DNA of 34,241 bases, taken from positions 1 through 34,241 of the forward strand of contig CAMYKD010000049.1 in NCBI GenBank assembly GCA_947258885.1, in the 5' to 3' direction. Below the pieces are notes generated by a model. That model made no database searches. It was not told where the DNA came from and saw nothing but the letters and a program-made list of their open reading frames with translations. Below are positions 8,720-31,094 of the stretch, piece by piece (the first letter of the stretch is position 1; each line of letters begins with the position of its first letter). A program made the translations under genes and the position numbers. Source of the DNA: an uncultured Kiloniellales bacterium (GTDB lineage: Bacteria; Pseudomonadota; Alphaproteobacteria; Kiloniellales; JAKSDN01).

Positions 8720-10345
8720 TTGATTGGGTCGGGTCAGGTGATTTCGCACGACAACTCCACTCGACGAGAGGCGGTCTCCCCTCGTCCCTACCGTCTGACG
8801 CGAAATTTCGCGATCGGCGCCATGCTTGTGATGTTCGTTGCCGCGGCGGGCCTCGTACAGGTGCACCGAAGCCATGCCATCGACCAAATCCGAACGATGG
8901 CCGAGCAGAACAACGCCACCCTGACCCAGGCGGTCGCCAACGGCCTGTGGCCTGAATACGCGTCGTTCATCGCGTCGGCCCGGCAGCTCGGGGCCGAGGC
9001 GCTGCGCCGCGATCCGCGAACGGCGGCGCTGAAGCGCGAGGTGACGACGCTTCTGCGGGGCACCGTGGTCCTGAAGGTCAAACTCTATGACGCCCGGGGA
9101 TTCACGGTGTTCTCGACCGACACGGCCCAGATCGGCGGCGACTACAGCGCCAACCCGCGCTTCCTCTCGGCGCGCGGCGGCGAAATCTTCAGCAACCTGT
9201 CCTTTCGCGAGCGGTTCGACGCGGCGGACGGCGCAAGGACGAACCGTTGGGTGCTGTCGAGCTACGTCCCGGTCCGGCTGTCCGGCGGCGCCGGCGAGGT
9301 CGTGGGCGTCGCCGAGATCTACAGCGATGTGACCGATGTCCACGGCTATATCCGGTATGTCGAGCTGGTCGAAACGCTGCTGGTCGGCGGCGCGTTTTTC
9401 GTCGTGTTCCTGCTCCTGCTCTGGGTGGTCTGGCGGGCCGACCTGAAGATCCGTTGGCAGCACACCGAAAACCTGGAGCTCGCCGCGAGTAAGGCGCGTG
9501 CGGAATCGGCCCACCGGGCCAAATCCGAGTTCCTGAGCAACATGAGCCACGAGCTGCGGACGCCGCTCAATGCGATCATCGGTTTCTCCGAGGCGATCCG
9601 GACCGGCGTCTACGGGCCGGCCGGCGACCCGCGCTATGTCGAATACGCCCACGACATCCACAACTCGGGCCAGCACCTGCTGAACATCATCAACGACGTG
9701 CTCGATCTGGCCTGGGCGGAATCGGGCAAGATGCCAGCTGCACACGACCCGGTGGACATCGTCGAAACGGCCCGCGGCGCGGTCAGTTTGCTCCGTCGGG
9801 AGGCAGAATCGGCCCAGATCGAGTTGAGCTTAGACGCGTTTGAGAGCAGCTGCACGATCGAGACGGACGGCAGCAAGGTTCGCCAGATCCTTCTCAACCT
9901 GCTCGCCAACAGCCTCAAGTTCACCCCGGCCGGCGGTTCGGTCGACCTGACGGTCGCGCGCGATCCGCGTGCCGGGATGGTCCAGCTGAGCGTGTCCGAC
10001 ACCGGCATCGGAATGCGTCGCGAGGACATCCCCCTCGCCCTGGCGCCCTTCAGCCAGATCGACGGCTCTTTGTCCCGCGAATACGAAGGTACAGGTCTCG
10101 GCCTGCCGTTGTCGATGAAGCTCGCCCGGTTGCTCGGCGGCGATCTGGAGCTCGAATCCGCGCCCGGCGTCGGCACCAGGGTTACCTTCACGCTTCCGGA
10201 TCGCGCGCCGCCCCGCGAGGCGGCAAACGAGAACGCGGACACCAAGGGCGAGGACGAGGCCACGTCCGACCGGCGCAACACAACCGAAACCCGCGCCGCC
10301 GGGGCGGCCTCCGGCAGACACGGATCCGCCGACCGGACTATCTGA
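8720..10345 (+). CDS. Membrane sensor histidine kinase (HisKA/HATPase)
   Basis: 541-residue orphan sensor kinase that should autophosphorylate on a histidine and pass phosphate to an unidentified response regulator. None is encoded next to it. Order of parts: a membrane helix at about residues 31-50, a periplasmic sensor region of about 160 residues (ARGFTVFSTDTAQIGG), a second helix near 220-238, then a HisKA domain with NMSHELRTPLN (His277), an N-box (NLLANSLKF), a G1 box (SDTGIGM), an F-box (PFSQIDGS) and a G2 box (GTGLGL). The start is uncertain: TTG at 8720 or GTG at 8738, neither with a clear ribosome site. It is closely related to the next kinase, so the pair probably arose by tandem duplication. 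The last 40 residues are hydrophilic and low complexity. Confidence 0.88.
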   Translation: MIGSGQVISHDNSTRREAVSPRPYRLTRNFAIGAMLVMFVAAAGLVQVHRSHAIDQIRTMAEQNNATLTQAVANGLWPEYASFIASARQLGAEALRRDPRTAALKREVTTLLRGTVVLKVKLYDARGFTVFSTDTAQIGGDYSANPRFLSARGGEIFSNLSFRERFDAADGARTNRWVLSSYVPVRLSGGAGEVVGVAEIYSDVTDVHGYIRYVELVETLLVGGAFFVVFLLLLWVVWRADLKIRWQHTENLELAASKARAESAHRAKSEFLSNMSHELRTPLNAIIGFSEAIRTGVYGPAGDPRYVEYAHDIHNSGQHLLNIINDVLDLAWAESGKMPAAHDPVDIVETARGAVSLLRREAESAQIELSLDAFESSCTIETDGSKVRQILLNLLANSLKFTPAGGSVDLTVARDPRAGMVQLSVSDTGIGMRREDIPLALAPFSQIDGSLSREYEGTGLGLPLSMKLARLLGGDLELESAPGVGTRVTFTLPDRAPPREAANENADTKGEDEATSDRRNTTETRAAGAASGRHGSADRTI

Positions 10346-11240: not shown

Positions 11241-12209
11241 ATGGGCAAGCCCTATTCGGAAGATCTTCGCCTTCGTGTGATCGGGATCTTCGCCTTCGTG
11301 TGATCGGCGCGGTTGAAGATGAGCAGATGAGCCGTCGGGGAGCGGCGGCACGCTTTGGGGTGGGCGTGAGCACGGCGATCAACTGGGTTCGGGACTGGCG
11401 GGCCGAGGGGCGCACGAAAGCGCGGGCGATGGGCGGAGATACTCGCTCGAAGCTGACCGGGCAGCGCGCCGTGGTGCTCGAGTTGATCGAGGAGCAGCCT
11501 GACCTGACGCTTGAGGAGGTACGCTCGGTATTGGCCGAACAGGGCGTTGATGTCGGCTATGGCACGGTCTGGCGTTTCTTCGACAAGGAAGGCATCAGCC
11601 TTAAAAAAAACCGTGCACGCCAGCGAACAGGATCGCCCTGACGTCGTCGAAGCCCGCGCCCGTTGGCGCCATGGGCAAGCCGGTCTGGCGCCCGAGCGCC
11701 TGGTCTTCATCGATGAGACCTGGACCAAGACCAACATGACCCGCAGCCACGGGCGCTGCGCGCGGGGCAAGCGTCTGGCCGGCAAGGCCCCCTTCGGCCA
11801 TTGGCACACATCGACCTTCATCGCCGCCTTGCGCGTCAACGGCATCGAGGCCCCGGCGGTGATCGACGGCCCGGTCAACGGCCTCATCTTCCAAGCCTAT
11901 GTCGAGCAGATCCTCGCCCCGGCCTTGAAGCCCGGTGACATCGTGATCATGGACAACCTGTCCAGCCACAAACGCCAAGCCGTGCGAACCGCCATCGAAG
12001 CCCGCGGCGCCGAACTCCGCTTCCTGCCGCCCTACAGCCCCGACCTGAACCCCATCGAGCAGGCCTTCGCTAAGCTCAAGACGCTCCTGCGAAAAGCCCA
12101 AGCACGAACCCGCGACGCGCTCTGGAAACGCATCGGAGCCCTGCTCGACGAATTCTCACAGCAAGAATGCCAAAACTACTTCATCAATGCAGGATATGCT
12201 CAATCCTGA
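11241..12209 (+). pseudogene. IS630-family transposase, frameshifted
   Basis: DDE transposase of the IS630 family. The natural start is the ATG at 11241 (GGAGGG at 11231-11236 upstream). A 23-bp tandem duplication (11262-11284 and 11285-11307) then pushes the frame into a TGA at 11301-11303 after 20 codons. Deleting one copy restores a continuous N-terminus with a helix-turn-helix (SRRGAAARFGVGVSTAINWV). A second frame change lies at eight adenines (11603-11610). It may be programmed slippage, known in this family, or a one-base gain. The C-terminal half carries the catalytic triad in [14 protein letters not shown] and PDLNPIEQ and ends at 12209. With the duplication, full-length transposase is unlikely to be made from the normal start. 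A restart at GTG 11300 is possible. Confidence 0.88.
11262..11307 (+). repeat. 23-bp tandem duplication in transposase
   Basis: Two perfect adjacent copies of GATCTTCGCCTTCGTGTGAT plus CGG, at 11262-11284 and 11285-11307. Because 23 is not a multiple of three, the duplication shifts the transposase frame and creates an early stop. Confidence 0.95.
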
Positions 12210-13087
12210 GCGGATAACGCTCTAGCCGAGCGGCGGCTCCATCGCCGGCAGGAGGCGGGTCTCGGCCGCGCGGCCGAACCGGCCGGTACCCCCTCCGCCG
12301 ACCAGCCGAAGCTGGAACTGATGGGCCATCTGAGCCACGAGATCCGCACCCCGCTGAATACCATCCTGGGCTTCGCCGAGACAATCAAGGACGGCCTCTT
12401 CGGACCGCTCGGCAACGCCCGCTATGTCGAATATTCCAACGACATCTATGATTCCGGCCAGCACCTGCTGAAGATCGTCAACGATGCGCTCGACATTGCC
12501 GATCTCGAGTCCGGCCGGCTGAAGGCCGACAACGGTCCCGTCGACCTCCTGGAGACGGCGCGCGCCGCGATCGGGTCGCTCGGCGACCAGGCGGAGGCCG
12601 CGAGGGTCGAGGTCCGCCTCGAGGCGCCGGCGGACATCGGCCGGATCGTCAGCGACAGAGAACGGATCCGCCAAGTGCTGGTCAATCTCCTGTCAAACGG
12701 CCTGAAGTTCACGCCGCCCGGCGGCAGCGTGACGCTCGCCATGGAGCGGGCCGCGCCCGCGGGGGCGGTACGATTCTGCGTCTCGGACACCGGCATCGGC
12801 ATGAAGCACGACGAGATACCTTTCGCCCTGTCGCCCTTCAGCCAGATCGACGTGTCGATCACGAACAAGCGGCCGGGCAGCGGGCTCGGCCTGCCCCTGT
12901 CGCGCAAGGTGGTCGAGCTGCTGGGCGGCAAACTAGAACTCGAGTCCGAGCTGGGCATCGGCACCACGGTGACCTTCACCCTGCCCGACCGCGCCGAGGC
13001 CGCCGCCGAGTTCGCCGCGGCCAGTGCCGCGTGACGACCCGCGGCCGCGCGCCCTGAAGCGGCTTGATTTCCGGACCGGCGTCCCCA

Positions 13088-14248: not shown

Positions 14249-15286
14249 ATGAAGATCCTCTACATCGGCAACGTCCAGGGGTTCGGCAATGCGGAGCGGT
14301 TCTATCTGATCCCGCAGAAGCTGGTGAACGGCTTCACGCGCAACGATCACAACGTCTATCCCTTCAACGACCGGGACTACGCGCGCAGCAGCACGCTCTT
14401 CGGCTCCCGCAAGTTCGGCATCGTCCCGTTGAACCGGAAGGTCCTCGAGGTCAGCGCCGATTTTCGGCCCGACTTGGTGCTCCTGGGCCACTGCGAAATG
14501 ATCTGGAACCGGAGCCTCGAGCAGATGCGGCGGCTCTGCCCCGGGGTCAAGATCGTCTACCGGAACGTGGACCCCCTGAACGACGCCGGCAACGTCGAGG
14601 ATATCGAGCGCCGCGCCGGGGTCGTCGACGGTATTTTCCTGACCACGGCGGGCGCGCGCCTGAAGCGCTTCGCCAGGCCGGAGACCTTCGTGGCCTTCAT
14701 GCCGAATCCGATCGACCCCAGCATCGAGACCGGCCGCAGTTTCGCCGCCGCCGATCACCGTTTCGATTTGTTCTTCGCCGGCGGCCGGGTGGGCCGGGCC
14801 GATGTGCGCGGCGCCCGCATCCGGCGCATCGTGCACGAACTGCCCGAGCTCCGGTTCGCCCTCCACGGCGCCGGCTTCAACCAGGATTACGTTTTCGGAC
14901 AGCACTATCTCGACCGCTTGGCGCAAACCAAGATGGGCCTCAGCTTGAGCAAGTCGAACGACGATTATTTCTATGCCTCCGACCGCATGGCGCAGTACCT
15001 GGGCAATGGCCTCCTGACCTTCCTGCAACGCGGCGCCGGCTTCGAAGAGCTCTTCGAGGAAGACGATATCGCCTATTACCGGGATGACGATGAACTGCTG
15101 CGCAAACTGCGGCATTTCCAGTCGGAGGACGCGGCGTGGCGCCACGTGGCCGAGCGCGGCTGGCGCAAGGCCCATGCCGTCTTCGACTGCAAGCTGGTCG
15201 CCCGATACATGCTCGAGACGATCTTCGAGCTGCCGCTCTCCCATGCCTACCGCTGGCCCACCGAAGTGCACCGCGTGACCGTGTGA
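14249..15286 (+). CDS. CgeB-like glycosyltransferase
   Basis: 345-residue cytoplasmic protein that looks like a two-domain GT-B glycosyltransferase of the CgeB/Glyco_trans_1_2 type. It should transfer a sugar from a nucleotide donor, but donor and acceptor cannot be told. The N-terminal half begins MKILYIGNVQGFGNAERF and contains FRPDLVLLGH. The C-terminal half has GLSLSKSNDDYFYASDRMAQ, then GAGFEELFEEDDIAYY and a closing helical region, typical of the donor-binding half of CgeB-like proteins. Its TGA overlaps the ATG of the O-antigen-ligase-like gene by one base, so the two are probably translated together in surface polysaccharide synthesis. The ATG at 14249 begins directly at the first beta strand. 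Confidence 0.8.
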   Translation: MKILYIGNVQGFGNAERFYLIPQKLVNGFTRNDHNVYPFNDRDYARSSTLFGSRKFGIVPLNRKVLEVSADFRPDLVLLGHCEMIWNRSLEQMRRLCPGVKIVYRNVDPLNDAGNVEDIERRAGVVDGIFLTTAGARLKRFARPETFVAFMPNPIDPSIETGRSFAAADHRFDLFFAGGRVGRADVRGARIRRIVHELPELRFALHGAGFNQDYVFGQHYLDRLAQTKMGLSLSKSNDDYFYASDRMAQYLGNGLLTFLQRGAGFEELFEEDDIAYYRDDDELLRKLRHFQSEDAAWRHVAERGWRKAHAVFDCKLVARYMLETIFELPLSHAYRWPTEVHRVTV

Positions 15287-16497
15287 TGACGGCTTTCAAC
15301 GGTCTGCGGAGGTTGGGCGAGCGGTTCCGCGGCCTGGTTGTTCGGAACCGGGTCGCCGAGATCATGTTCTACGTCTTGATCGCGTCCTTTTTCCTCCTGG
15401 AGACCCGCCTGCATCGCAATTTGTTCTACCTGTTTCTGCCGGTCTTCATCGCCTGGCTCGCGCGCCGCGAGATCTGGCAGCGCCTCGGTCGGTCGCGCCT
15501 CTGCGGGCTCGTGCTGCTCTACCTGGGCTATTTCTGGGTCTCGCAATTCTGGTCCTCGGACTACGACCTCGAAGACTTCATGAATGCGACCCGGATCTTC
15601 CTGTTCATCGTGATCTTCCTGGCGGTCGGCATCACGCTTTTCGAGCAGGTGCCGGCGGCCGTCGCGAAGCTCTCGACGGTGACCTTCGTCGTGGCCGCGG
15701 TGACGGCTGGCATGGCGCTCGTCCTGTTTCTCGCGACGAGTGCCCCGCTTCACGACCGCTTCGAGGGCTTCGGCCGGGCCGGCCACCCGATTCTCGGCGC
15801 CCACCTCTACGCCGCCGCGCTTCTGGTTGTGGTGGCCTACCTCCTGCCGCGGGTGGAGAGCCTGTCGCTGCGTCTGCTTTATGAGTCGGCCGTCGTGCTT
15901 TTCGCGCTCGTGATCGGGCTCAGCCTCAGCCGCGGACCGATCCTGGCGGTGGCTCTGACGATCGTCGTCATGGCGCTCCTGAGAGGCAATGTCTGGATCT
16001 ACCTTTCGGCGGGACTGCTGCTGGTCACCATCCCCGTGGTCTACGCCCTCTTCGGGCTTGATCTCGGCGATCTCGTCTCGCGCGGCGCGAGCAGCCGTCC
16101 GGCGCTCTGGTCGGCGGCCTGGGACCTCGTTGGCGAGGCGCCGCTGTTCGGTCACGGCCTGATGGCCGAGGTCGCGTTCCGGAACGAGGCGGGCATCCCC
16201 TACCGCTCGCCGCACAACATCCTGTTGGCCAATCTCGTGCACGGCGGCGGCGTAGCGCTCGCCCTCGTCCTGGCGATCTATGCCTTGGCGTTTGCCGCCG
16301 TGTTGCGGCGGATACGCCGGCCCGAAGTCTTCCTCGCCGGCGCCCTGCTGCTGTTCGGATTTCTCGCCGGCCAGACCGACTACCGGCTGTTCTACGTGAA
16401 CCTCAATCCCGAGTGGCTGACCTTCTGGCTGCCGCTCGCGATCCTGGGCCGTACCGACCTCTCCAAGCCCGACACGCCCGCTTCGGGACAACCATGA
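15286..16497 (+). CDS. O-antigen ligase / Wzy-type polytopic membrane protein
   Basis: 403-residue inner-membrane protein with about ten to twelve hydrophobic segments. Proteins of the Wzy_C/O-antigen ligase superfamily join polysaccharide from a lipid carrier to lipid A core, or polymerise repeat units. The superfamily marks seen are GLSLSRGPILA before a hydrophobic pair, and the large periplasmic loop with ASSRPALWSAAWDLVGEAPL and SPHNILLANLVHGGG. The conserved arginine of SRG and the histidine of SPHN are present. The start overlaps the glycosyltransferase stop (TGATG), which suggests translational coupling. Ligase cannot be separated from polymerase on sequence alone. The protein ends in a short hydrophilic tail. 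Confidence 0.85.
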   Translation: MTAFNGLRRLGERFRGLVVRNRVAEIMFYVLIASFFLLETRLHRNLFYLFLPVFIAWLARREIWQRLGRSRLCGLVLLYLGYFWVSQFWSSDYDLEDFMNATRIFLFIVIFLAVGITLFEQVPAAVAKLSTVTFVVAAVTAGMALVLFLATSAPLHDRFEGFGRAGHPILGAHLYAAALLVVVAYLLPRVESLSLRLLYESAVVLFALVIGLSLSRGPILAVALTIVVMALLRGNVWIYLSAGLLLVTIPVVYALFGLDLGDLVSRGASSRPALWSAAWDLVGEAPLFGHGLMAEVAFRNEAGIPYRSPHNILLANLVHGGGVALALVLAIYALAFAAVLRRIRRPEVFLAGALLLFGFLAGQTDYRLFYVNLNPEWLTFWLPLAILGRTDLSKPDTPASGQP

Positions 16498-18488: not shown

Positions 18489-19889
18489 TCACCTCTTTCG
18501 GGTGTCCGACAGCCCCAGGTCCCGAGCCAAGTCGTTCAATGTGGCCTCGAGCCGGCGGAGAAGCTCGCGGCTCTCCTCCTCGGTGATGGTCAACGGCGGA
18601 GAGACGATGAACCACTGGCCGTAGCGGCCCCCGGAGGTCGGGCGCGAATAGATCATCAGGCCGTTGCGGAGACCGTGAATACGCACCTTGTCGGCGGGGA
18701 GCAGGTCGTTGGGCAGCAGCGCTTTCGTCTCACGGTCCGCAACCAGCTCGACCGCCATCAGAAGTCCGAGCCCGCGCACGTCGCCGACGATCGGACTTCG
18801 CGTCCGCAGGTCCTCCAGGCCGGCGCGCAGCTGGGCGCCGCGCTCGGCCGCGCAGGCGACGAGGTCCAGGCGCTCGAACTCGTCGAGGACCGCCATACCG
18901 GCTGCGCAGGACACCGGATTGGCGTTGTAGGAGTATTGGAACTCGAAGCCCGTGAGGCCGGCCAGCTCGTCGACCATCGCCGCGGGCGCGAGCATGGCGC
19001 CCAGCGGGCTGTAGCCGGAGCCCAGTCCTTTCGCCAGCGTGACGATGTCCGGCAGCGCGTCCGGCCAATGGTGCGCCGCCAGGAACTTGCCGGTCCGGCC
19101 GGCGCCGCAGAGGATCTCGTCGAACACGAGGTGGACCTCGTGGCGGCTGCAGATGTCGCGGATGGCGCGCATGTAGGCCGCCGGCGGCACGACGCAGCCG
19201 GTCGAGAGGCCGCCGACCGGCTCGATGACGAAGGCCAGCACCTGCTCGGCGCCGAGCTCGCGGATCTTCTGCTCCAGCGCCTCGGCGCAGTGCCGGGCGT
19301 AGCTCTCGGCGTCGTGGGTCTCGGGCAGGCGGTAGCCGAAGGGCGCCGGCACTTTTTCCGACATCGCGGCGAATCCCTCGAGGAACGGGGCCATCGTCAC
19401 CTCGCCGTTCATCGCCAGAGTCGCGATGGTCGCGCCGTGATAGGACGGCTGGCAGGTGATGATGATGCGTTTCGATGGCCGGCCGGTGGCGATCGCATAT
19501 TGCCGGAGGAACTTCAGGGCGTTTTCCATCGCCTCGCTGCCGCCCGACGTCAGGCTGACCCGCTCGAAGCCCGGCCCGGCCAGCCGGGCGAGGCGTTCGG
19601 AATAGGCGATATTGGCGCGGTTTCTGGCGAGCCGGGCGAAGGCGTATTCGAGGGTCTTCGCCTGCGTGGCCATGGCGTCGGCCACCCGCGCGTTGCCATG
19701 GCCGATGTTGCTGACGACCGGCCCCGAAGAGACGTCGATATAGCGATTGCCGTCTTCGTCCCACATGTGAATGCCCGCCGCGCGCTCGATCACCGGGAGC
19801 GGCACGATGTTCCCCTTGGCATAGAAAGCGTCCTGTCCGCCGCCGAACGCGGGGGCCGCGTTATGGCTGACACCCTTGGGATCATCCAT
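18489..19889 (-). CDS. Class III PLP-dependent aminotransferase
   Basis: 466-residue pyridoxal-phosphate enzyme of the class III (omega) aminotransferase group, which moves an amino group, often from a non-alpha position, to a keto acid. Seen in order: a substrate-side opening (FYAKGNIVPLPVIERAAG), the phosphate-binding TSGGSEAMENALKF, the SYHGATIATLAMNG segment, the cofactor aspartate in HLVFDEILCGAGRTG, and the Schiff-base lysine, about Lys287, in LAKGLGSGYSPLGA. The ATG at 19889 has GGGGA six bases upstream. The ATG at 19895 almost touches that site and is less likely. A LysR gene lies 108 bases upstream in the same direction and is a natural candidate regulator. The substrate is not predictable from sequence. 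Confidence 0.9.
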   Translation of the reverse strand: MDDPKGVSHNAAPAFGGGQDAFYAKGNIVPLPVIERAAGIHMWDEDGNRYIDVSSGPVVSNIGHGNARVADAMATQAKTLEYAFARLARNRANIAYSERLARLAGPGFERVSLTSGGSEAMENALKFLRQYAIATGRPSKRIIITCQPSYHGATIATLAMNGEVTMAPFLEGFAAMSEKVPAPFGYRLPETHDAESYARHCAEALEQKIRELGAEQVLAFVIEPVGGLSTGCVVPPAAYMRAIRDICSRHEVHLVFDEILCGAGRTGKFLAAHHWPDALPDIVTLAKGLGSGYSPLGAMLAPAAMVDELAGLTGFEFQYSYNANPVSCAAGMAVLDEFERLDLVACAAERGAQLRAGLEDLRTRSPIVGDVRGLGLLMAVELVADRETKALLPNDLLPADKVRIHGLRNGLMIYSRPTSGGRYGQWFIVSPPLTITEEESRELLRRLEATLNDLARDLGLSDTRKR

Positions 19890-19997
19890 CTTCATTCCCC
19901 TGAGATCATCGGCGACCGGATTGCGCGAAAGCTCCCCGAATTGCCCTGATCGTCTTCATAGTATCGATATAGAGCGCGGGTCAAATCCGATCGCCGG

Positions 19998-22312: not shown

Positions 22313-22603
22313 ATGACCACGAATCCCATGATTGCATTGACCGCGGCCGCTTTGGCTCTCGTTCTGACCGGCCCGGTCCAGGCCCTGACCTTGACCAACC
22401 GCGACGCGGTCGAGCAGCGTGTGCAGATCAATGAAGGCGGTGACGAGACGGTGACGCAAGACGTCGTCCTCGGGGCCGAGCAGACCCTTGAGGGCCTCTG
22501 CGAGGACGGTTGCACGATCGCCTTGGAGAACGGCGTCCAGGAAAGCTTCGAAGGCAACGAAGACGTCTACATCGAGAACGGTGGCTTTCAGATCGCCGAG
22601 TAA
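22313..22603 (+). CDS. Small exported acidic protein
   Basis: 96-residue protein with a clear Sec signal peptide: a hydrophobic core (IALTAAALALVLTGP) and a cleavage-site-like VQA before LTLTN. The mature 70 or so residues are strongly acidic, with two cysteines close together (LCEDGCTIAL) that may form a disulfide, and the closing EDVYIENGGFQIAE. It should be periplasmic and beta-rich. I do not recognise the family. AGGAGC and AAGGA lie 5-15 bases before ATG 22313. The gene sits 20 bases after a small basic protein gene, so opposite charges are encoded side by side. A strong hairpin follows at 22645. Confidence 0.72.
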   Translation: MTTNPMIALTAAALALVLTGPVQALTLTNRDAVEQRVQINEGGDETVTQDVVLGAEQTLEGLCEDGCTIALENGVQESFEGNEDVYIENGGFQIAE

Positions 22604-22781: not shown

Positions 22782-23810
22782 ATGTCCAGAAGACTCCGTC
22801 GCATCGCGGTGATCACGGGCGATCCCTCCCTGCCCGACCCGACCAAGCGGGGCGGACGCTACCACGAGGAGGACGCGGTCACCCACGAGGCCATGATGGC
22901 GGCGTTTCAAAGCCTCAAGGGCTACGAATTCGATTGCCGGAGCGAGCACGAACACCTGCTCGACCTGTTGCGCGACGACCCGCCCGACCTAGTGGTCAAC
23001 TTCTGCGACACGGGTTTCCGCAATGTCCCGACACAGGAACTCAACCTGCCCGCCTACCTGGAGCTTCTGGGCATCCCCTACACCGGCGCGCCGCCGGCCG
23101 CCATGGTCATCTGCTACGACAAGGCGATCGTGCGCCTCGTCGCCCAGTCGCTCGGCCTGCCGGTTCCCCGCGAAATCTATGTCCCGGCCGATATGCCGGT
23201 CGACGCCCTGCCCGAGATGTATCCCGCGCTGATCAAGCCGAACACGGCCGACGGCAGCGTGGGCATCACCAAGGACGCCGTTGTGCGCTCCCGAGGCGAG
23301 GCCCTGGACTACATCGCCTGGCTGCGCGCGGCTCTGCCCGGGCGCGACGCGCTGGTCCAGGAGTATCTGCCGGGCGCGGAGTACGGCATCGGCGTGATCG
23401 GCAATCCGGAAACGGGCCTGCGCATGCTGCCGCCTTTGGAGGTCGACTATACGCGGCTGCCGGCGGGGCTCAGCCCGATCCTGTCCTTCGAGTCGAAGGC
23501 GATGCCGGACTCGCCCTACTGGACGGACATCACCTTCAAGCGCGCGGACCTGAAACCCGAGATGCAAGCGCGGCTCGAGTCCTGGACCCGCAGGCTGTTC
23601 GGCCGCCTCGGCCTGCGCGACTACGGCCGCTTCGATTTCCGCGTCGCGGCAGACGGCGAGCCCAAGCTGATGGAGGTGAACCCCAATCCGGCCTGGGCCA
23701 ACGACGGCAAGCTCGCCTCCATGGCGGGCTTCGCCGGGATCGATTACCGCGGCATGCTGCGCCTGATCCTCGAGGCCGCGATCGCCCGCGTGGCAGGATC
23801 GCGCGGTTGA
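22782..23810 (+). CDS. D-Ala-D-Ala ligase-like ATP-grasp enzyme
   Basis: 342-residue ATP-grasp protein resembling D-alanine-D-alanine ligases, so it probably joins a carboxylate to an amine using ATP. Seen: an N-terminal domain with RRIAVITGDPSLPD and DLVVNFCDTGFRN, the ATP-grasp core with GIPYTGAPPAAMVICYDKAI, PALIKPNTADGSVGI and LVQEYLPGAEYGIGVIG, and the metal-binding MEVNPNPAW at about residue 302. The normal peptidoglycan enzyme would usually sit in the division cluster, so a separate amino-acid or peptide ligase is as likely. It is tail-to-tail with a CocE/NonD hydrolase (8 bases between stops). The ATG at 22782 lacks a strong ribosome site, but the protein begins well there. Confidence 0.83.
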   Translation: MSRRLRRIAVITGDPSLPDPTKRGGRYHEEDAVTHEAMMAAFQSLKGYEFDCRSEHEHLLDLLRDDPPDLVVNFCDTGFRNVPTQELNLPAYLELLGIPYTGAPPAAMVICYDKAIVRLVAQSLGLPVPREIYVPADMPVDALPEMYPALIKPNTADGSVGITKDAVVRSRGEALDYIAWLRAALPGRDALVQEYLPGAEYGIGVIGNPETGLRMLPPLEVDYTRLPAGLSPILSFESKAMPDSPYWTDITFKRADLKPEMQARLESWTRRLFGRLGLRDYGRFDFRVAADGEPKLMEVNPNPAWANDGKLASMAGFAGIDYRGMLRLILEAAIARVAGSRG

Positions 23811-23818
23811 ACCGCCGG

Positions 23819-25846
23819 TCAGACGAGCGCCCGCGGGATCGTCAGGTTCCACTCGCGCCGGGCGAAGGGCGCCTCGCCTTCATAAGTCTCCAGATCGCCG
23901 TTGAACTTGAACGACTCGAATGTGGCAGTCAGGCGCGTACGGCACTCGATACGCACGGACCAGTCGCCGCGCTGCAGCGTCGTAGTCTGGACGAGCTCGG
24001 TCTGGGCCGACAGCGGGTCGCTCTCGCCGATCCGATGGCGCCTTAGCAGCGAGTAGCCGAGATCGAGGTCGATCACCTCGATCCGTGCGAGCGTGGCGCC
24101 GCCCAGCTCGCCGCCGTCGCCGCGCAGGGTGAACACCGTTTCGTTGCTGGTCAGGTCGGTCTCGATGGTCCGGCGCATGACCATGTGGCGCAGCTTCTTA
24201 TGGCCCTTTGCCGGCGCGGCTTCCGGAGGCTCGAAGAGCAGCAGGCGTTCATCGCCCGCGCGCGGCGGCCGGACCGGCAGCGTCAGCGTGCTGGCCCCGG
24301 TGCGCAGGCCGATCACCGCTGCCTCCGGGGGCGGCCAAGCGATCGGCCAGTAGCTGGTGGAGAGCGCGAGCCGCAGGCGGTGGCCGGCCGGAATGGCGTG
24401 GGCGATGTCGTTGAGCTGAAGGCGCACCTGGTACCAGCGACCGGGCTCGAGCGGCGCGGGCTGTTCATGGCCATCGCGGTGCGTCAGGTTGAGCAGGCCG
24501 TAGCTCACCCGCAGCGACGAGCCGTCCGGCGCCACGTCGCAGAGCCGCGCGGCCAAAAGCGCGACCGGCGCGTCGGCCCGCAGCTCGAGCGCGAGGACCG
24601 GCGCGCCCAGGATCTCGAGCGGCTCGCCCAGCGGCTCGCCGTCGAAGGCAAGCGAGCCGCCGTCATCGGGGCGCTGGTCGGAGGGCATCTCGCCCTCGGC
24701 GCCGAAGCCGCACCACTCGCCGCTGCGCAGGCCGGTGGTCTGCGGCGAGCAGAACGACAGCTCGGTTTCGCGCGCGGGAACTGAGTCCAGGCGGCCCGGG
24801 TTCAAGTGCAGACGGCGCTGCTGGATACGTGGACTGGGCCAGGCCTCCTCGGCGACCCAGCGGCCGGGCCGGGTCTCGTAGTACGGTCGAGGCGCCACGC
24901 TGTCCTGCATCCAGACGCGGTAGAGCGGCTCGTCCATGATCCCCGTCTTCCGGCCCTTGAGCCAGTGGTCCCACCAGCGCACCGCCTCCTGCAGGAATCC
25001 GATCTCCGGGCCGGGCACGCCGTCGTGCGGGAAGACATGGGCCCAAGGGCCGATCAGCCCCTTCCGCGGGCAGTCGAGATGGGTGATTAACCGAGGCACG
25101 GCGTTCGAGTAGCCGTCGGCCCAGCCGCCGATTGCGTAGACCGCGCATTCGATCGCCCCATAGTCCTCGCAGACCGAGCCGTGCTTCCAGTAGTCGTCGC
25201 GCCAGGGGTGCCCCATCCAGAGCACCGGGAAGGGCTTGAGCGCCTCGATGCGCTCGCGCCACATGTCCCGCCACCGTTCTCCCACGATCTCCGGGTCCGG
25301 CGGCAGGGCGCCGTAGAGCGTGAGGATCGAGCCCCACTGCATGTTCTCGTTGAGGAGACAGCCGCCCATGTAGTGGGCGTCGTCGGCGTAGCGGTCGTCG
25401 GTCGAGCAGAGCGTGATGATGGCCTTGAGCGCCGGCGGCTTCAGCGCGGCCACCTGCAGCGCGTTGAAGCCGCCCCAGGAGATGCCCATCATGCCGACGG
25501 CGCCCGAACACCAGGGCTGCGTCGCGATCCAGGCGATGATCTCCAGCGCGTCCTCATGCTCCTGCAGGGTGTATTCGTCGTGCAGCAGTCCCCCGGAGTC
25601 GCCCGAGCCGCGGATATCCACCCGCACGCTGGCATAGCCCTCCAACGCGAAGTAGCGGTGGATTGGCTCGTCGCGCGCGCGCATGAAGTCGCGCTTGCGG
25701 TAAGGGATGTACTCCAGGATCGCCGGCACCGGCTCCTGGTCCGCCGACTTCGGCATCCAGATCCGGGCGGCGATTCGGCAGCCGTCCGACATGGAGATCC
25801 AGGCATTCTCGATTTCGCGGATGCTTCCGAGGCCTGTTGCTATCAT
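23819..25846 (-). CDS. CocE/NonD family hydrolase (peptidase S15-like)
   Basis: 675-residue alpha/beta hydrolase of the CocE/NonD group, which includes cocaine esterase and X-Pro dipeptidyl peptidases. It could cleave an ester or an acyl-peptide bond. The N-terminal catalytic domain has VDIRGSGDSGG, the nucleophile elbow GISWGG (Ser123) and the triad histidine probably in GPWAHVFPHDG. The C-terminal part (about from residue 340) is the jelly-roll domain typical of the group, with RLALSTSYWPIAWPPPE. There is no signal peptide, so it is probably cytoplasmic. It faces the ATP-grasp gene tail to tail, and the pairing hints at making and breaking related bonds, which is unproven. Confidence 0.88.
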   Translation of the reverse strand: MIATGLGSIREIENAWISMSDGCRIAARIWMPKSADQEPVPAILEYIPYRKRDFMRARDEPIHRYFALEGYASVRVDIRGSGDSGGLLHDEYTLQEHEDALEIIAWIATQPWCSGAVGMMGISWGGFNALQVAALKPPALKAIITLCSTDDRYADDAHYMGGCLLNENMQWGSILTLYGALPPDPEIVGERWRDMWRERIEALKPFPVLWMGHPWRDDYWKHGSVCEDYGAIECAVYAIGGWADGYSNAVPRLITHLDCPRKGLIGPWAHVFPHDGVPGPEIGFLQEAVRWWDHWLKGRKTGIMDEPLYRVWMQDSVAPRPYYETRPGRWVAEEAWPSPRIQQRRLHLNPGRLDSVPARETELSFCSPQTTGLRSGEWCGFGAEGEMPSDQRPDDGGSLAFDGEPLGEPLEILGAPVLALELRADAPVALLAARLCDVAPDGSSLRVSYGLLNLTHRDGHEQPAPLEPGRWYQVRLQLNDIAHAIPAGHRLRLALSTSYWPIAWPPPEAAVIGLRTGASTLTLPVRPPRAGDERLLLFEPPEAAPAKGHKKLRHMVMRRTIETDLTSNETVFTLRGDGGELGGATLARIEVIDLDLGYSLLRRHRIGESDPLSAQTELVQTTTLQRGDWSVRIECRTRLTATFESFKFNGDLETYEGEAPFARREWNLTIPRALV

Positions 25847-26093
25847 GGCGCTTCAACCCACTAGGCGACCCAAAGGATCCCGGCCCTTGCTCCCGTTAGG
25901 ACCGCTGCCCCCTCGCCCGCTTTACGCCTAGCCGTGCGCGGCGGCAAGAGCCGTTGTGTCGACCGGAATCCGAGCGCCGGCTTCTCTAGGGAATAGGCGT
26001 GCGCGCGGCGGTCCCTCGTAGCTGGAGTGCTTTGGATGCCAAAACCGGCAAGAGGGTTGGGTGGCGTGCGACGATTCGAACGCCGATACGAGG

Positions 26094-27101
26094 TCACAGG
26101 TACCGGTCGGCCGACAAATCGCTCGGCGCGAAACGACCTGCCTCATCAGGCCGGCCGTGCGCGCCGAAATGCCGCTTCGCGAAATCCACGCGCTGTCGGA
26201 TCTCGGCCAATTCCCCGGCGGTTCTCTCCGTCTGCCTAAGGCGATGAAGCAGGCCGCATCGGTTGGCGATCTGAATGCTCAAGCCGGGCCGCGCGTTGAT
26301 CTCCAGGATCAGCGGACCCTTGTCTCGGTCGAGCACGATGTCGATCCCCTGGTACCCCAGCCCGGTCAACTCGGAGGACCTGGCCGAGAGAGTCAGGAGT
26401 TCGTCCCAACGCGGTATGGAGAGGCCGCTCACGGACACCCCTGTATCAGGATGCTCCTCCACGACATCGTGACCGCGAACGGCCGTCAAGGTCCGACCAG
26501 TGGCTATGTCGATGCCCGCTCCGATCGCGCCCTGATGCAGATTGGCCTTGCCCTTCGACGCCCCCGTAGGCAAGCGCACCATCGCCATCACCGGGACACC
26601 CAGGAAGACGACGACCCGCACGTCGGGTACGCCCTGGTACGACACGTTCTCGAATACCGGGTCGAATCGTACCCGGTATTCGAACAGCGCCTTGTCCGGT
26701 TGGTTGGCCAAGGAGTACGTCCCACTGAGGATGTTGTTCACGTGAAACTGCAACTCTTCCGGGCTCATTAGCAGCCCGGTGGATAGGCGGTAGCCATTCT
26801 TCGTCCGGCCCGTGATGACAATGATGCCGTCGCCGCCGCTGCCGCCGGCCGGCTTGACGACGAACTGATCGTAAGCGCCCAGCAATCGCGGCAGATCCCG
26901 CACTTGGTAGGGGAACTCGACCACCGCATAGAGGTCGGGCACGGCAATACCCGCGCGCAAGGCTGCCGTCTTCGTCTCGAACTTGTCGTCGGCCAGGCGA
27001 TAGCAGCGCCGCTGATTGTATCTGAGGAGGAATTCGGCGTTGCGTGCATTGATTCCAATGACCCCGGCGTCGCGCAGCCGCCTGGCGAGCGCGAAGATCA
27101 T
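26094..27101 (-). CDS. RimK-related ATP-grasp ligase
   Basis: 335-residue ATP-grasp protein of the type annotated as alpha-L-glutamate ligase-like. It probably adds an amino acid, perhaps glutamate, to a protein or peptide. The N-terminal region (ARNAEFLLRYNQRRCYRLAD) is followed by the ATP-grasp core with QFVVKPAGGSGGDGI, ALFEYRVRFDP, GVPDVRVVVFLG and the metal-binding tail DKGPLILEINARPGLSIQIA. The ATG at 27101 overlaps the stop of the 7TM gene (ATGA). The open frame extends further but has no protein character there. In family context this ligase goes with a retropepsin-like protease and a transglutaminase-like 7TM protein, as here. The natural substrate is not known. Confidence 0.9.
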   Translation of the reverse strand: MIFALARRLRDAGVIGINARNAEFLLRYNQRRCYRLADDKFETKTAALRAGIAVPDLYAVVEFPYQVRDLPRLLGAYDQFVVKPAGGSGGDGIIVITGRTKNGYRLSTGLLMSPEELQFHVNNILSGTYSLANQPDKALFEYRVRFDPVFENVSYQGVPDVRVVVFLGVPVMAMVRLPTGASKGKANLHQGAIGAGIDIATGRTLTAVRGHDVVEEHPDTGVSVSGLSIPRWDELLTLSARSSELTGLGYQGIDIVLDRDKGPLILEINARPGLSIQIANRCGLLHRLRQTERTAGELAEIRQRVDFAKRHFGAHGRPDEAGRFAPSDLSADRYL

Positions 27102-28624
27102 GGTCTTCTTCCCGCCAGCACCGCAAAGCGGCGAAGTTCCAGGAGTCGATAGCCCGAATAGCGCCCAAGCAGCATTGTGACGCTCAACAGCACGAGCGCG
27201 AGTTCTGGAAACACGAAGAGAAGGTGGTCGACCACGGCCAACGTCATGATCAGGTAGCAAAAGACCGCAACCAACAAGCTGGCGAACGCTTGAGTGAGCG
27301 CCTCGCGAGCGCCCCTTTCGTCCCAAACCACCGACATTCGCTCGATCATCATTGTAAGGATGACCATTGGAAACAGCGCCACCGAGAGGCCGCGCTCGAT
27401 CCCGAGCCGGTGCGTGACAATGCTGAACGCGGCCATGAGCAGGATCACCAGAATTAGGACGGAACCCAGCCGCGGAATCACCAGAAGCTTCAGTGTTTCC
27501 AGATAGAATCTCGCGGCGAGCCCAAAGGTCACGATCACCGAAAAAAGAAAAAGCCCCCAGAGGAGTTCGGTCTCTCGAAAGGCCAGGGCAATCAGTATGG
27601 GCATGAAGGTCCCGAAGGTCTGGACTCCGACCACGTTGCGGAAGAACACGATAACCAGGACGGCCAGGGTAACCGGCATAAGCACCCGATAGACCTGCTG
27701 CGTCTCGAGCGGCAAACCGAACAAAGAGACCGCAAACAACGACGATTTCCTTTTCAACCCGGTACTCACCACGGTCTGGACGGCGCTTTCGGTTATGCGT
27801 TCCACAGCTAGGCTGTGGCGCAGCGCTTCGCCCCCTTCCAGGCGCACGAGCGGATTATCGCCATGCCACCACCTCATGTAGTCTTCTGGAATCTGCGGCT
27901 CGGCCGTCTCCAAGGAGAACGGCTGCCAAGCCGTGCCCAAATGGGCTTCGAGCCAATGGACCAATCCCGCCTCTGCCTTTTGAACCGGTAGTCGTACGCC
28001 GTGGACGGGGCGGGCCGCCACGCCTGCCAGTGCCAGGAGTTGGGCCGCGAGGCGGCTTCGTTTCCTGGGCGTGGGATTCGATCCAAGCAACGCCTCGGCA
28101 TTCATACCCGAAGCAGGGCCTAGGGCCCGGAGCAAAGCGATCACGAACGTTTCGGGGTCCGCGGATTCCCGTTTCGCCTGCTCCACGACCGCCTGGGCGG
28201 CGACTTGGTCCCGGCTTTCGAAGCGTGTCTCGAAGAGGCGTGGCGGATCTTCCGAGACCGGGGCCCCGACCTCGGGCCCGCGATGAATGACCGCCCGATA
28301 GTAGATGTTTTGTTCGCCCGTCGCCTGCCGGATGGAAAAAGTGGCCTGGCGGTTACCTTGGATCGATCTGGTGGACAGGCCATATCCGGGAGCGACGAAC
28401 TGTTGGTCGATAAGCATGAAATGGCCGACGTTCCGCGGCATGTGTATCGAGAGCTTGATCGGGTCGCCGAGACCGCGAAAGGTCGCTCGAATTTCAGCGA
28501 CCCAATGGCTCGTCTTATCCCCGGGCAGTATCGGGACTGCCAGCGCCAGGGCTTTGTACAGGAATACACCTAGGCCGGTCGCAGCGAGCACCAGGACAAG
28601 CATGTAGAGATGGCGTTGGGGCAC
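27098..28624 (-). CDS. Inactive transglutaminase-like 7TM protein
   Basis: 508-residue inner-membrane protein. It has an N-terminal membrane segment (about residues 7-30), a periplasmic domain of about 230 residues resembling a catalytically dead transglutaminase (GDKTSHWVAEIRATFRG near its start), then a block of about seven membrane helices from residue 300 onwards (FRNVVGVQTFGTFMPILIAL and later ERGLSVALFPMVILTMMIER). This matches the family called inactive transglutaminase fused to 7TM helices. It begins with GTG at 28624, one base after the protease stop, and its stop overlaps the ligase start, so the three genes form one tight operon. It may anchor or gate the other two at the membrane, which is inferred from conserved neighbourhood. 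Confidence 0.9.
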   Translation of the reverse strand: MPQRHLYMLVLVLAATGLGVFLYKALALAVPILPGDKTSHWVAEIRATFRGLGDPIKLSIHMPRNVGHFMLIDQQFVAPGYGLSTRSIQGNRQATFSIRQATGEQNIYYRAVIHRGPEVGAPVSEDPPRLFETRFESRDQVAAQAVVEQAKRESADPETFVIALLRALGPASGMNAEALLGSNPTPRKRSRLAAQLLALAGVAARPVHGVRLPVQKAEAGLVHWLEAHLGTAWQPFSLETAEPQIPEDYMRWWHGDNPLVRLEGGEALRHSLAVERITESAVQTVVSTGLKRKSSLFAVSLFGLPLETQQVYRVLMPVTLAVLVIVFFRNVVGVQTFGTFMPILIALAFRETELLWGLFLFSVIVTFGLAARFYLETLKLLVIPRLGSVLILVILLMAAFSIVTHRLGIERGLSVALFPMVILTMMIERMSVVWDERGAREALTQAFASLLVAVFCYLIMTLAVVDHLLFVFPELALVLLSVTMLLGRYSGYRLLELRRFAVLAGRRP

Positions 28625-28625
28625 C

Positions 28626-29123
28626 CTAAGAGGCGTCCGCGGCGCAGGTCGGTTTGGTCGTAAAGGTCGAGGATGAATCCACCAATATGGCGCCTTCCAG
28701 AAACCTTCGGCCGATCAGCAATTGATAGTTCAAGTCCGAACGGTCGGTAAGGTTGACCTCGACCCGCCTCGAGATCTGCGCGACGCACACGTCCAGCAAG
28801 ATGACGTAGCGTTCCTCTGCGTCCGCCCCGGCGCGTTTGATCGTGGCGATGCCTTCGACAGGGCGCTCGAATTTGACCGTGCGACCTTTGTTGTTGGTAA
28901 CGCTGAACCGCACCCATAGTCGCCCGTCCTTGCGAAACCTGGCGACATCCTGCGCGTTCAGCGAAGAGTTGCGCGCACCGGTGTCCAACTTGCCGCGCAG
29001 GATGAGTCGGTCGGGGCCAAGACGCGCGAGTTCCAGCCAGCCGAGAACGATGGGGTCTCCGGCCGCAGCGGCACGGGCGGCAACCAATGACAGGAGCAAA
29101 AGCACGGCCGGGATGAGTCGCAT
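28626..29123 (-). CDS. Exported retropepsin-like (RimB-type) protease
   Basis: 165-residue protein with a signal peptide (MRLIPAVLLLLSLVAARAAA) and a single retropepsin-like aspartic protease domain. The active-site motif is LDTGARNSSL (Asp47), and a family-typical ILIGRRFLEG-like stretch (QLLIGRRFLEGAILVD) lies near the end. Older annotation calls this family ATP-dependent zinc protease, but the DTG motif points to an aspartic enzyme that would act as a dimer in the periplasm. ATG 29123 is the only start that gives the signal peptide. A perfect 7-bp hairpin covers the two bases next to that start. It is first in the operon with the 7TM protein and the ligase. Confidence 0.88.
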   Translation of the reverse strand: MRLIPAVLLLLSLVAARAAAAGDPIVLGWLELARLGPDRLILRGKLDTGARNSSLNAQDVARFRKDGRLWVRFSVTNNKGRTVKFERPVEGIATIKRAGADAEERYVILLDVCVAQISRRVEVNLTDRSDLNYQLLIGRRFLEGAILVDSSSTFTTKPTCAADAS

Positions 29124-29452
29124 GAGCCCGGTTCGCCGGGCTTGTCGCAGACGGCAATCTGCGCGTCTCGTTCGTCGATTTTCGCATGGCAACGCCGATC
29201 GAGCGACGGCTCCGAAGCCTGAGAATCCATGGCCGCTCGCGGGCGGGGCCGTGCATCTACCATGAAACAAGATCATTCCGTCGCTCTCATCTGCGGCAGA
29301 CATCCGGAGGATCGTCTGCCCCCCCTAGATTCGCATCGTGTTGGACACCACACGGACCCTCCCGCTCAATAATTCCCAATCTGCCGCAGTGCGGCTACCT
29401 TCAAAGTTCTCCTTCGCGCGCGAGAGCGCCCGGTCTCACGGCTCGCAGCATA
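29124..29452. other. Upstream region of the protease operon
   Basis: About 329 bases between the protease start and the end of the third ATP-grasp-like gene. The minus-strand frame of the protease continues open up to 29303 but has no ribosome site or protein-like composition, so it is taken as leader. The operon promoter should be here. No defined elements were found apart from the hairpin at 29125-29142. Confidence 0.45.
29125..29142 (-). promoter_or_regulatory. Hairpin at the protease start codon
   Basis: AGCCCGG and CCGGGCT form a 7-bp perfect stem with a 4-base loop (CGAA on the transcript strand). It ends one base before the ATG at 29123 and covers the place where a ribosome site would lie. 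It could limit translation of the operon's first gene. Confidence 0.5.
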
Positions 29453-30415
29453 TTACGATGCCGCCGTGTCGTTCGCTTTGTGCCTGCGCCCGCCGCGCTG
29501 CAAGAGCTGCTGCGTCGACCAGAAGCTGAGCGCCAGCTTCTCGCGCACGGCGAAGCCGGTTTCCAGCGCCCAGCAGTTGACGATGCCGAGGCGGAAACCG
29601 CCGGGCGGCATCGAATGGGCGCTGGGCGGCCGGTCTTCGTGGAAGGTGACTTGGATGCTCGAAACCCCGGGCGTGCGGCGCAGTTCGTCGACCAGTCCTT
29701 GGGGCGGGTGGGCGTACTGGACGCCGTGGGCGCCGAACAGCACCACGCTGTAGCCTTCGCGGCGGTCCGCGTCCTCGAAATCCCATGTGCCCTCGGCATA
29801 GAGCCGGACCAAGGCCTTGGTCCACCCCTCGCCGTAGAGATCGGGCCACTGGTCCGCAAACCGCAGATGCGCCTCGATGATCCTGGCGCCAATGGTCTCG
29901 AAGTTGACCATGCCCGTATAGCCGGCCAAGTGCTCGCGCGTCCACCGGCCACAGTGGTCCTCGATCTCCGGGCGCGAGTCGGCCAGCACGGTCCAGTAGT
30001 CGAACATGCCGCCCTCGAGCGGCTTGCCGATGACGTGGCGCCACCACCTCGGCTCGCCCTTCACGACCGCGACGTCGCTGCTCACATGCGCGCCGTCCAA
30101 CATCGGCATCCACATGTGGCCGGGCCGCTGAAGGTATTTGTACTCCTTGAGCGTGCGGAAGGCTCGGGTCCCCGCGCCCATGCCGCGCAGGTTGTAGATC
30201 GGCTTGCTGAAGACGGGAAATGACGGCGGATCAAGCCCGTGCGGTCCGCAGGCCAAGTCCTGGCTCTCGGCTATCGAAAGCTTGTTGTAGACCCACTTGT
30301 ACTCGGGATTCCACGCCCAGGCGTCGCCATCCTCGGTCGGAATTCGGACCGTCTCCGGACAGGCCACGTTCTCGAAGTACTGCTGGCGCCAGGGGTCGGC
30401 TTCGCAGATCGGCAT
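29453..30415 (-). CDS. Compact ATP-grasp-like protein, unknown role
   Basis: 320-residue protein I cannot assign to a named family. Its layout resembles ATP-grasp enzymes without the usual N-terminal domain: a KWVYNKLSIAESQDL stretch, then SFPVFSKPIYNLRGMGAGTR (like a lysine plus glycine-loop nucleotide site), HMWMPMLDGAHVSSDVAVV (like the central acidic strand), and GYTGMVNFETIGARIIEAHL followed by RF (like the metal-binding end, but with E-x-H-L-R where E-x-N-x-R is usual). The last part (GIVNCWALETGFAVREKL) is distinct. ATG 30415 is preferred over TTG 30421. It is divergent from a MarR gene and lies behind the protease operon. ATP use and ligase activity are inferred, not shown. Confidence 0.6.
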   Translation of the reverse strand: MPICEADPWRQQYFENVACPETVRIPTEDGDAWAWNPEYKWVYNKLSIAESQDLACGPHGLDPPSFPVFSKPIYNLRGMGAGTRAFRTLKEYKYLQRPGHMWMPMLDGAHVSSDVAVVKGEPRWWRHVIGKPLEGGMFDYWTVLADSRPEIEDHCGRWTREHLAGYTGMVNFETIGARIIEAHLRFADQWPDLYGEGWTKALVRLYAEGTWDFEDADRREGYSVVLFGAHGVQYAHPPQGLVDELRRTPGVSSIQVTFHEDRPPSAHSMPPGGFRLGIVNCWALETGFAVREKLALSFWSTQQLLQRGGRRHKANDTAAS

Positions 30416-30610
30416 CGTCAATCCCGCAGATCAGTTCATCAAAGAACGGCTGCAGGATAGCCGGTTTTCGCGGGAAACGAAGACCCAATTGTTCCGGATT
30501 CCCAAAGCGCTGCCATGCCGACGGCTCCCGCCGCCGCACCGCCCGACGCTTTGCTTCTCGTGCCGGACGGGCCCCCAGGTCAAGGCCACCTTGAACGCGC
30601 GCGATAAAGG

Positions 30611-30620
30611 TGTATATACA
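30611..30620. promoter_or_regulatory. TGTATATACA palindrome before MarR gene
   Basis: A perfect 10-base palindrome 6 bases before the MarR start. A close copy (TGTATATGCA) lies at 31115-31124 before the next gene. MarR proteins commonly bind short AT-rich palindromes overlapping their own promoter, so this is a candidate autoregulatory operator. Confidence 0.5.
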
Positions 30621-30626
30621 TATATC

Positions 30627-31094
30627 ATGAATGCAAATCCGCCCTCACAGCTCGACATAGCGACAGCCGCGGAGATCGGCCGGTCCTGCCTGTTCCTGGG
30701 GCTGCGCCGCGCCGACCGGGCGGCGATGCAGATCTACGACGAGGCGCTCAGGCCCTGCGGCCTGCGCGCGACGCAGTTCGGCCTGCTGGTCGCGTTGCGC
30801 GTGTTGGCGCCTGTCAGTGTGAGCGCGCTGGCGCGCAAAGCGGTCATGGACCGCTCCACGCTGACCCGCAACCTCGCGCCTTTGGAGCGCGCGGGTCTGG
30901 TCCGGACCGAGCCCGGCGAGGACCGCCGCGTCCGTATGGTGTCGTTGACGGCCCGGGGTCAGCGCGCTCTCGCCCGCGCCTATCCCAGCTGGCGGGACGC
31001 CCAGACGCGCGCCCAAACTCTACTCGGCGAGGAGCTGTCTGGCGACCTGATCGCGCGGCTGCACACGGCCGTCCAAGCCCTCGTCCCCGACTGA
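30627..31094 (+). CDS. MarR-family transcriptional regulator
   Basis: 155-residue winged helix-turn-helix regulator that probably binds DNA as a dimer and is released by a small ligand. The pattern LRATQFGLLVALRVL, then VSALARKAVMDRSTLTRNLA (recognition helix), then GLVRTEPGEDRRVRMVSLT (the wing) is standard for MarR. The ATG at 30627 follows the palindrome TGTATATACA, which also appears in altered form before the membrane protein gene 70 bases downstream. It is 211 bases from the divergent ATP-grasp-like gene. Control of the membrane protein gene is the likeliest role. The ligand is unknown. Confidence 0.93.
   Translation: MNANPPSQLDIATAAEIGRSCLFLGLRRADRAAMQIYDEALRPCGLRATQFGLLVALRVLAPVSVSALARKAVMDRSTLTRNLAPLERAGLVRTEPGEDRRVRMVSLTARGQRALARAYPSWRDAQTRAQTLLGEELSGDLIARLHTAVQALVPD

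Follow-up and report, generated by a model that had tools for sequence, protein, structure and literature searches.

Do the six genes within 7.6 kb of this contig, three of which encode ATP-grasp proteins, belong to one pathway? The initial annotation had placed three ATP-grasp proteins with three hydrolase-type partners in positions 22782-30415 of the window, by which we mean the whole stretch of 34,241 nucleotides that was analysed. We find that this segment probably consists of two functional units: a set of three genes that would both make and turn over a short peptide or other small amide (module 1), and the rloABC operon (module 2), which lies between two of these genes, P6 and CocE. The features discussed here are as follows:

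18489-19895: class III aminotransferase
22782..23810, plus strand: DALA-like gene of module 1, a D-Ala-D-Ala-ligase-like ATP-grasp protein of 342 aa (PF07478)
23819..25846, minus strand: CocE/NonD (peptidase S15-type) hydrolase of module 1, 675 aa (PF02129, PF08530, TIGR00976)
25847..26093: spacer of 247 bp between CocE and RloC, where the rlo operon meets CocE
26094..27101, minus strand: RloC of module 2, a RimK-related ATP-grasp ligase-like protein (TIGR02291)
27098..28624, minus strand: RloB of module 2, an inactive transglutaminase with 7 transmembrane helices (PF14400, PF14402, NF052267)
28626..29123, minus strand: RloA of module 2, a retropepsin-like protease with a DTG motif and an N-terminal signal-like sequence (PF05618)
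29124..29452: spacer of 329 bp between RloA and P6, where the rlo operon meets P6
29453..30415, minus strand: P6 of module 1, 320 aa, an ATP-grasp protein whose family has no name (AlphaFold2 model and structure comparison)

All six genes are real and lie where they had been placed, based on translation and family scans; the DALA-like gene has its ATG at position 22782, and P6 has its first base at position 30415. Five of the six, from P6 to CocE, are co-directional. The count of three ATP-grasp proteins stands, with the DALA-like protein and RloC assigned by their families and P6, described earlier as compact and ATP-grasp-like, by its predicted structure, but the hydrolases number two rather than three, since the transglutaminase family to which RloB belongs is inactive. 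Scans of the whole window for Rfam families and tRNAs gave no match. An anti-phage defence system was considered and rejected, as none of the six proteins matched a PADLOC model. Elsewhere in the window, two histidine-kinase-like genes lie close together (8720-10345 and 12321-13034); after them come two more genes, one glycosyltransferase-like and one O-antigen-ligase-like (14249-16497).

The predicted structure of P6 identifies it as an ATP-grasp protein. It has no match in Pfam or NCBIfam, and Pfam likewise recognised no sequence in the family alignment of 63 (P6 plus 62 homologues). The AlphaFold2 model built from this 63-sequence alignment (pLDDT 91.9, pTM 0.87) contains a complete ATP-grasp fold, and its best solved matches by Foldseek are L-amino acid ligases (6e-12), PylC and GAR synthetase, with a VIA Z of ∼20 over ∼280 residues against GAR synthetase and the L-amino acid ligases. 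The closest folds are those of the L-amino acid ligases BL00235/RizA and BacD/YwfE and of PylC (Foldseek E from 6e-12 to 9e-10; VIA Z ∼19 for the ligases), from which P6 differs in sequence (9-20% identity), in its shorter length (320 versus 353-471 aa) and in a His in place of the Asn of the metal motif. In the family alignment E173, H183 and R185 do not vary, and E181 is conserved in >90%; these four residues correspond to metal and phosphate ligands by motif rather than by superposed residues. Compared to the canonical metal ligands Glu...Glu-x-Asn, His183 occupies the position in the last metal-binding motif that is Asn in most ATP-grasp enzymes, and the activity of P6 is thus not certain. 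P6 also resembles phrog_3577 of Synechococcus phages, which matches residues 36-187 with ∼31% identity, but covers only about half of P6. A short P6 homologue annotated as hypothetical adjoins baseplate genes in T4-like cyanophages (L137:3971-4579, from Synechococcus phage ACG-2014f); no plasmid relatives of P6 were found.

The other two module 1 proteins belong to recognised families. The DALA-like protein scores 57.3 bits to PF07478 (Pfam cut-off 24) and 82.3 bits to the D-Ala-D-Ala ligase model TIGR01205, below the curated cut-off of 245.65, and its best PDB matches are VanA (83 bits) and Ddl. It shares the ATP-grasp domain and the overall alignment with D-Ala-D-Ala ligase and VanA, but has NPNPAW where Ddl and Van proteins have the N-T-x-P-G motif, and a Glu aligns with His244 of VanA. 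A separate, true Ddl scores above cut-off elsewhere in the window genome, and this together with the score far below cut-off led us to reject the DALA-like protein as the cell-wall Ddl. CocE scores above cut-off to PF02129 (215 bits), TIGR00976 (242.5 bits) and PF08530. It keeps the domain order and catalytic triad of cocaine esterase and the CocE/NonD hydrolases, with Ser123, Asp244 and His270 of the alignment to cocaine esterase retained in >=97% of the 38 sequences compared, but differs from them in an extended C-terminus. No signal peptide was seen by eye on the DALA-like protein, CocE or P6, and we therefore place all three in the cytoplasm. Just ahead of the DALA-like gene, the plus strand encodes a small acidic protein (22313-22603, 96 aa) whose N-terminus is signal-like; it has no match in 80 P6 loci at E<=1e-6.

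These 80 named loci encoding P6 were obtained by a P6 profile scan of named genomes with two degenerate peptide patterns, by which distant relatives are missed, and adjacency was judged within 8 kb or up to the contig end. CocE adjoins P6 in 37 of the 80 loci, on the same strand in 36, and the distance from the P6 stop to the start of the CocE match ranges from -2 to 172 nt in relatives. The DALA-like gene is present in 30 loci, all of them with CocE, and is convergent with CocE in 29 of the 30; four of the seven loci with CocE and without the DALA-like gene stop at a contig edge. The contigs that carry module 1 come from bins of Pseudomonadota, Myxococcota, Nitrospirota and Rhodothermota, although most P6 loci are from metagenome bins and the contigs of the last three phyla may include binning errors. 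No further neighbour is consistently conserved: occasional ones are an MFS transporter (5 loci) and single instances of a BCCT transporter, an MscS channel, a PF04199 cyclase, a ferritin and a peptidase M1. The class III aminotransferase that had been pointed out as nearby is a real gene, but it lies outside the conserved set, being found in at most one of the 80 loci, and we rejected it as a module member for this reason. In two loci that lack CocE (L090 and L099), a different gene lies next to P6 and converges with it; the neighbour in L099 resembles an amidase-signature enzyme by eye and the neighbour in L090 clusters with it, and from these two loci P6 may often be paired with an amide hydrolase.

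The genes at 26094-29123 on the minus strand are rloABC, a known envelope-stress operon, judged by their families, gene order and tight spacing. RloC scores 422 bits to TIGR02291 (cut-off 314), and RloB scores above cut-off to both PF14400 (123 bits) and PF14402 (313 bits) and 408 bits to NF052267, a curated Pseudomonas model that requires 900. RloA is above cut-off for PF05618 and matches NF052264 and NF052262 below cut-off; its translation contains the motif LDTGA and begins with MRLIPAVLLLLSLVAARAAA, which resembles a signal peptide by eye. Because RloA and RloB fall below the narrow NCBIfam cut-offs for Pseudomonas, the operon here is a divergent member. The three genes lie in one operon, with a gap of 1 bp between rloA and rloB, and with the start of RloC overlapping the stop of RloB by 4 bp.

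In Pseudomonas aeruginosa, rloA, rloB and rloC act jointly in one process: RloA is a protease that is secreted and can cleave polyglutamate in vitro, the operon is associated with a hypo-osmotic phenotype, and the rloA triple mutant is suppressed by loss of rloB or rloC (PMC12239564). The operon in the window has the same three families in the same A-B-C order, with the DTG motif and N-terminal signal-like sequence of RloA, but differs in the score of RloB (∼408 bits versus the 900 required) and in sitting inside another operon. It is also similar to the RimK-RimB polyglutamylation system in pairing an ATP-grasp ligase with a retropepsin-like protease, but in rlo the protease is secreted and RloB is additional (PMC12239564). 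RloC, a RimK relative, would build a glutamate-rich chain, its putative product, inside the cell, RloB would span the inner membrane, and a secreted RloA would trim the product of RloC in the periplasm.

If all six proteins tagged and trimmed one peptide or protein at the envelope, we would expect the two modules to travel together. Six genes within 7.6 kb, five of them co-directional, are consistent with such an integrated route, but rlo genes lie within 8 kb of P6 in none of the 80 loci, and the two modules do not overlap in their distribution. Of 77 genomes related to the window genome, five have P6 (G019, G031, G034, G060 and G071, of which the first four contribute loci L054-L057 and the last L123 to the 80) and four others have RloB (G020, G023, G026 and G030), with an overlap of zero; in the phylum sample of 298 other genomes, RloB is found in 49 and P6 in 2, one of them weak, and the overlap is again zero. 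Indeed, in G019, G031, G060 and, over two contigs, G034, the DALA-like gene, CocE and P6 are in the same cluster without rlo between CocE and P6. The co-occurrence check that had been proposed for the six genes thus gives a split result: rlo and the P6-CocE-DALA set are unlinked and independently distributed in relatives, and linkage inside each module is strong. We therefore rejected a single envelope route for all six genes, and consider it very unlikely that they serve one integrated process, although the two modules could cooperate in this one organism. The suggestion of an envelope route holds for rloABC, as RloA of P. aeruginosa is secreted (PMC12239564), but is not supported for the DALA-like protein, CocE and P6, which carry no visible signal peptide and occur almost everywhere without rlo. 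The opposite reading, that all six genes are neighbours by chance, is the least credible of those considered: ATP-grasp proteins are common (12 matches to the Ddl model in the window genome), but chance is excluded inside each module by the linkage of module 1 across phyla and by the known rlo operon. Chance may account solely for the two modules having come together. The density that had been taken as more than chance suggests is not that of one unusual cluster: it amounts to two ordinary-sized clusters, one nested inside the other.

How, then, did rloABC come to lie inside module 1? The operon sits exactly between P6 and CocE, in the same direction, and its genes have the lowest GC3 in the segment (rloB 0.72, rloA 0.76, rloC 0.80), compared to ∼0.88-0.90 for the three module 1 genes and the aminotransferase; a few other genes of the window show the same tendency less strongly, such as that at 11511-12209 (0.78). 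The junctions carry short matches of the kind expected by chance but no convincing insertion repeats, and no sigma-70-like promoter was found in 25800-30800. The low GC3 of the rlo genes fits horizontal insertion of rloABC between P6 and CocE. We infer this direction of change because an ancestral six-gene cluster, with loss of rlo in all others, would require many more losses elsewhere, and is disfavoured for that reason. The gene order is read from a contig of a draft assembly, but an assembly error is unlikely to have set three whole genes exactly between two neighbours.

P6 has a second recurrent setting, beside genes for ergothioneine synthesis. In 19 other loci (L084, L088, L089, L092-L095, L100, L101, L103-L106, L108, L111, L112, L115, L117 and L121), its direct neighbours are EgtB and/or EgtD; three gene orders occur, the gaps span 14-625 nt, and the examples of EgtB and EgtD that were tested score above curated cut-offs. 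In L095, P6 and EgtB share one open frame of 774 codons (473-2797), which may be a fusion protein or a sequencing slip. One reading of this setting is that P6 is an ergothioneine-pathway ligase and that module 1 would form a conjugate of ergothioneine, hercynine or a related betaine, which CocE would later release. Consistent with this idea, P6 lies 1.4 kb from EgtD in a complete genome of the phylum sample (G294), and EgtD occurs elsewhere in the genome in 21 of 37 module 1 genomes versus 75 of 299 genomes in the phylum (Fisher p 1.6e-4, kinship ignored). However, the window genome has no match to EgtD and only EgtB-model matches of <=67 bits (cut-off 360), the four closest Kiloniellaceae have no EgtD, and 24 P6 loci have neither a CocE nor an Egt partner. 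In the P6 tree, the module 1 and ergothioneine settings are largely, although not cleanly, separated. We regard this reading as possible but unlikely. A narrower version, in which P6 replaces EgtA and supplies gamma-glutamylcysteine to EgtB, would account for a ligase fold adjoining EgtB, but the one adjacent EgtB that was tested scores 533 bits to the EgtB of Chloracidobacterium versus 150 bits to mycobacterial EgtB. Chloracidobacterium EgtB takes cysteine directly. Since the adjacent EgtB resembles this cysteine-using type, P6 is probably not a gamma-glutamylcysteine supplier, and we give the EgtA replacement very little credence.

The reading that we prefer remains that of two units. In module 1, P6 and CocE would form one operon, with the DALA-like gene convergent to it. 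Each of the two ATP-grasp ligases, P6 and the DALA-like protein, would convert a carboxylate into an acyl phosphate and couple it to an amine, and the CocE-type serine hydrolase would cleave or transfer an acyl group. The product is most likely a soluble, cytoplasmic small amide or short peptide.

Thus, the segment joins a known system, rloABC, to a little-known one, the three-gene P6-CocE-DALA cassette, in which the P6 family is undescribed; we found no published description of the cassette, although a survey of ATP-grasp amidoligases may hold one. In this genome, the rlo operon and the cassette should not be taken for a single pathway. A ligase-ligase-hydrolase cassette around a family that Pfam and NCBIfam do not recognise points to an undiscovered small molecule in diverse bacteria, and the setting of P6 beside ergothioneine genes offers a concrete class of substrates. 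As a speculation that we consider improbable, P6 would be the founder of an undescribed family of ATP-grasp ligases that link an amino acid to ergothioneine, hercynine or a similar betaine, and the P6-CocE-DALA cassette would make and release a new class of soluble conjugates in diverse bacteria.
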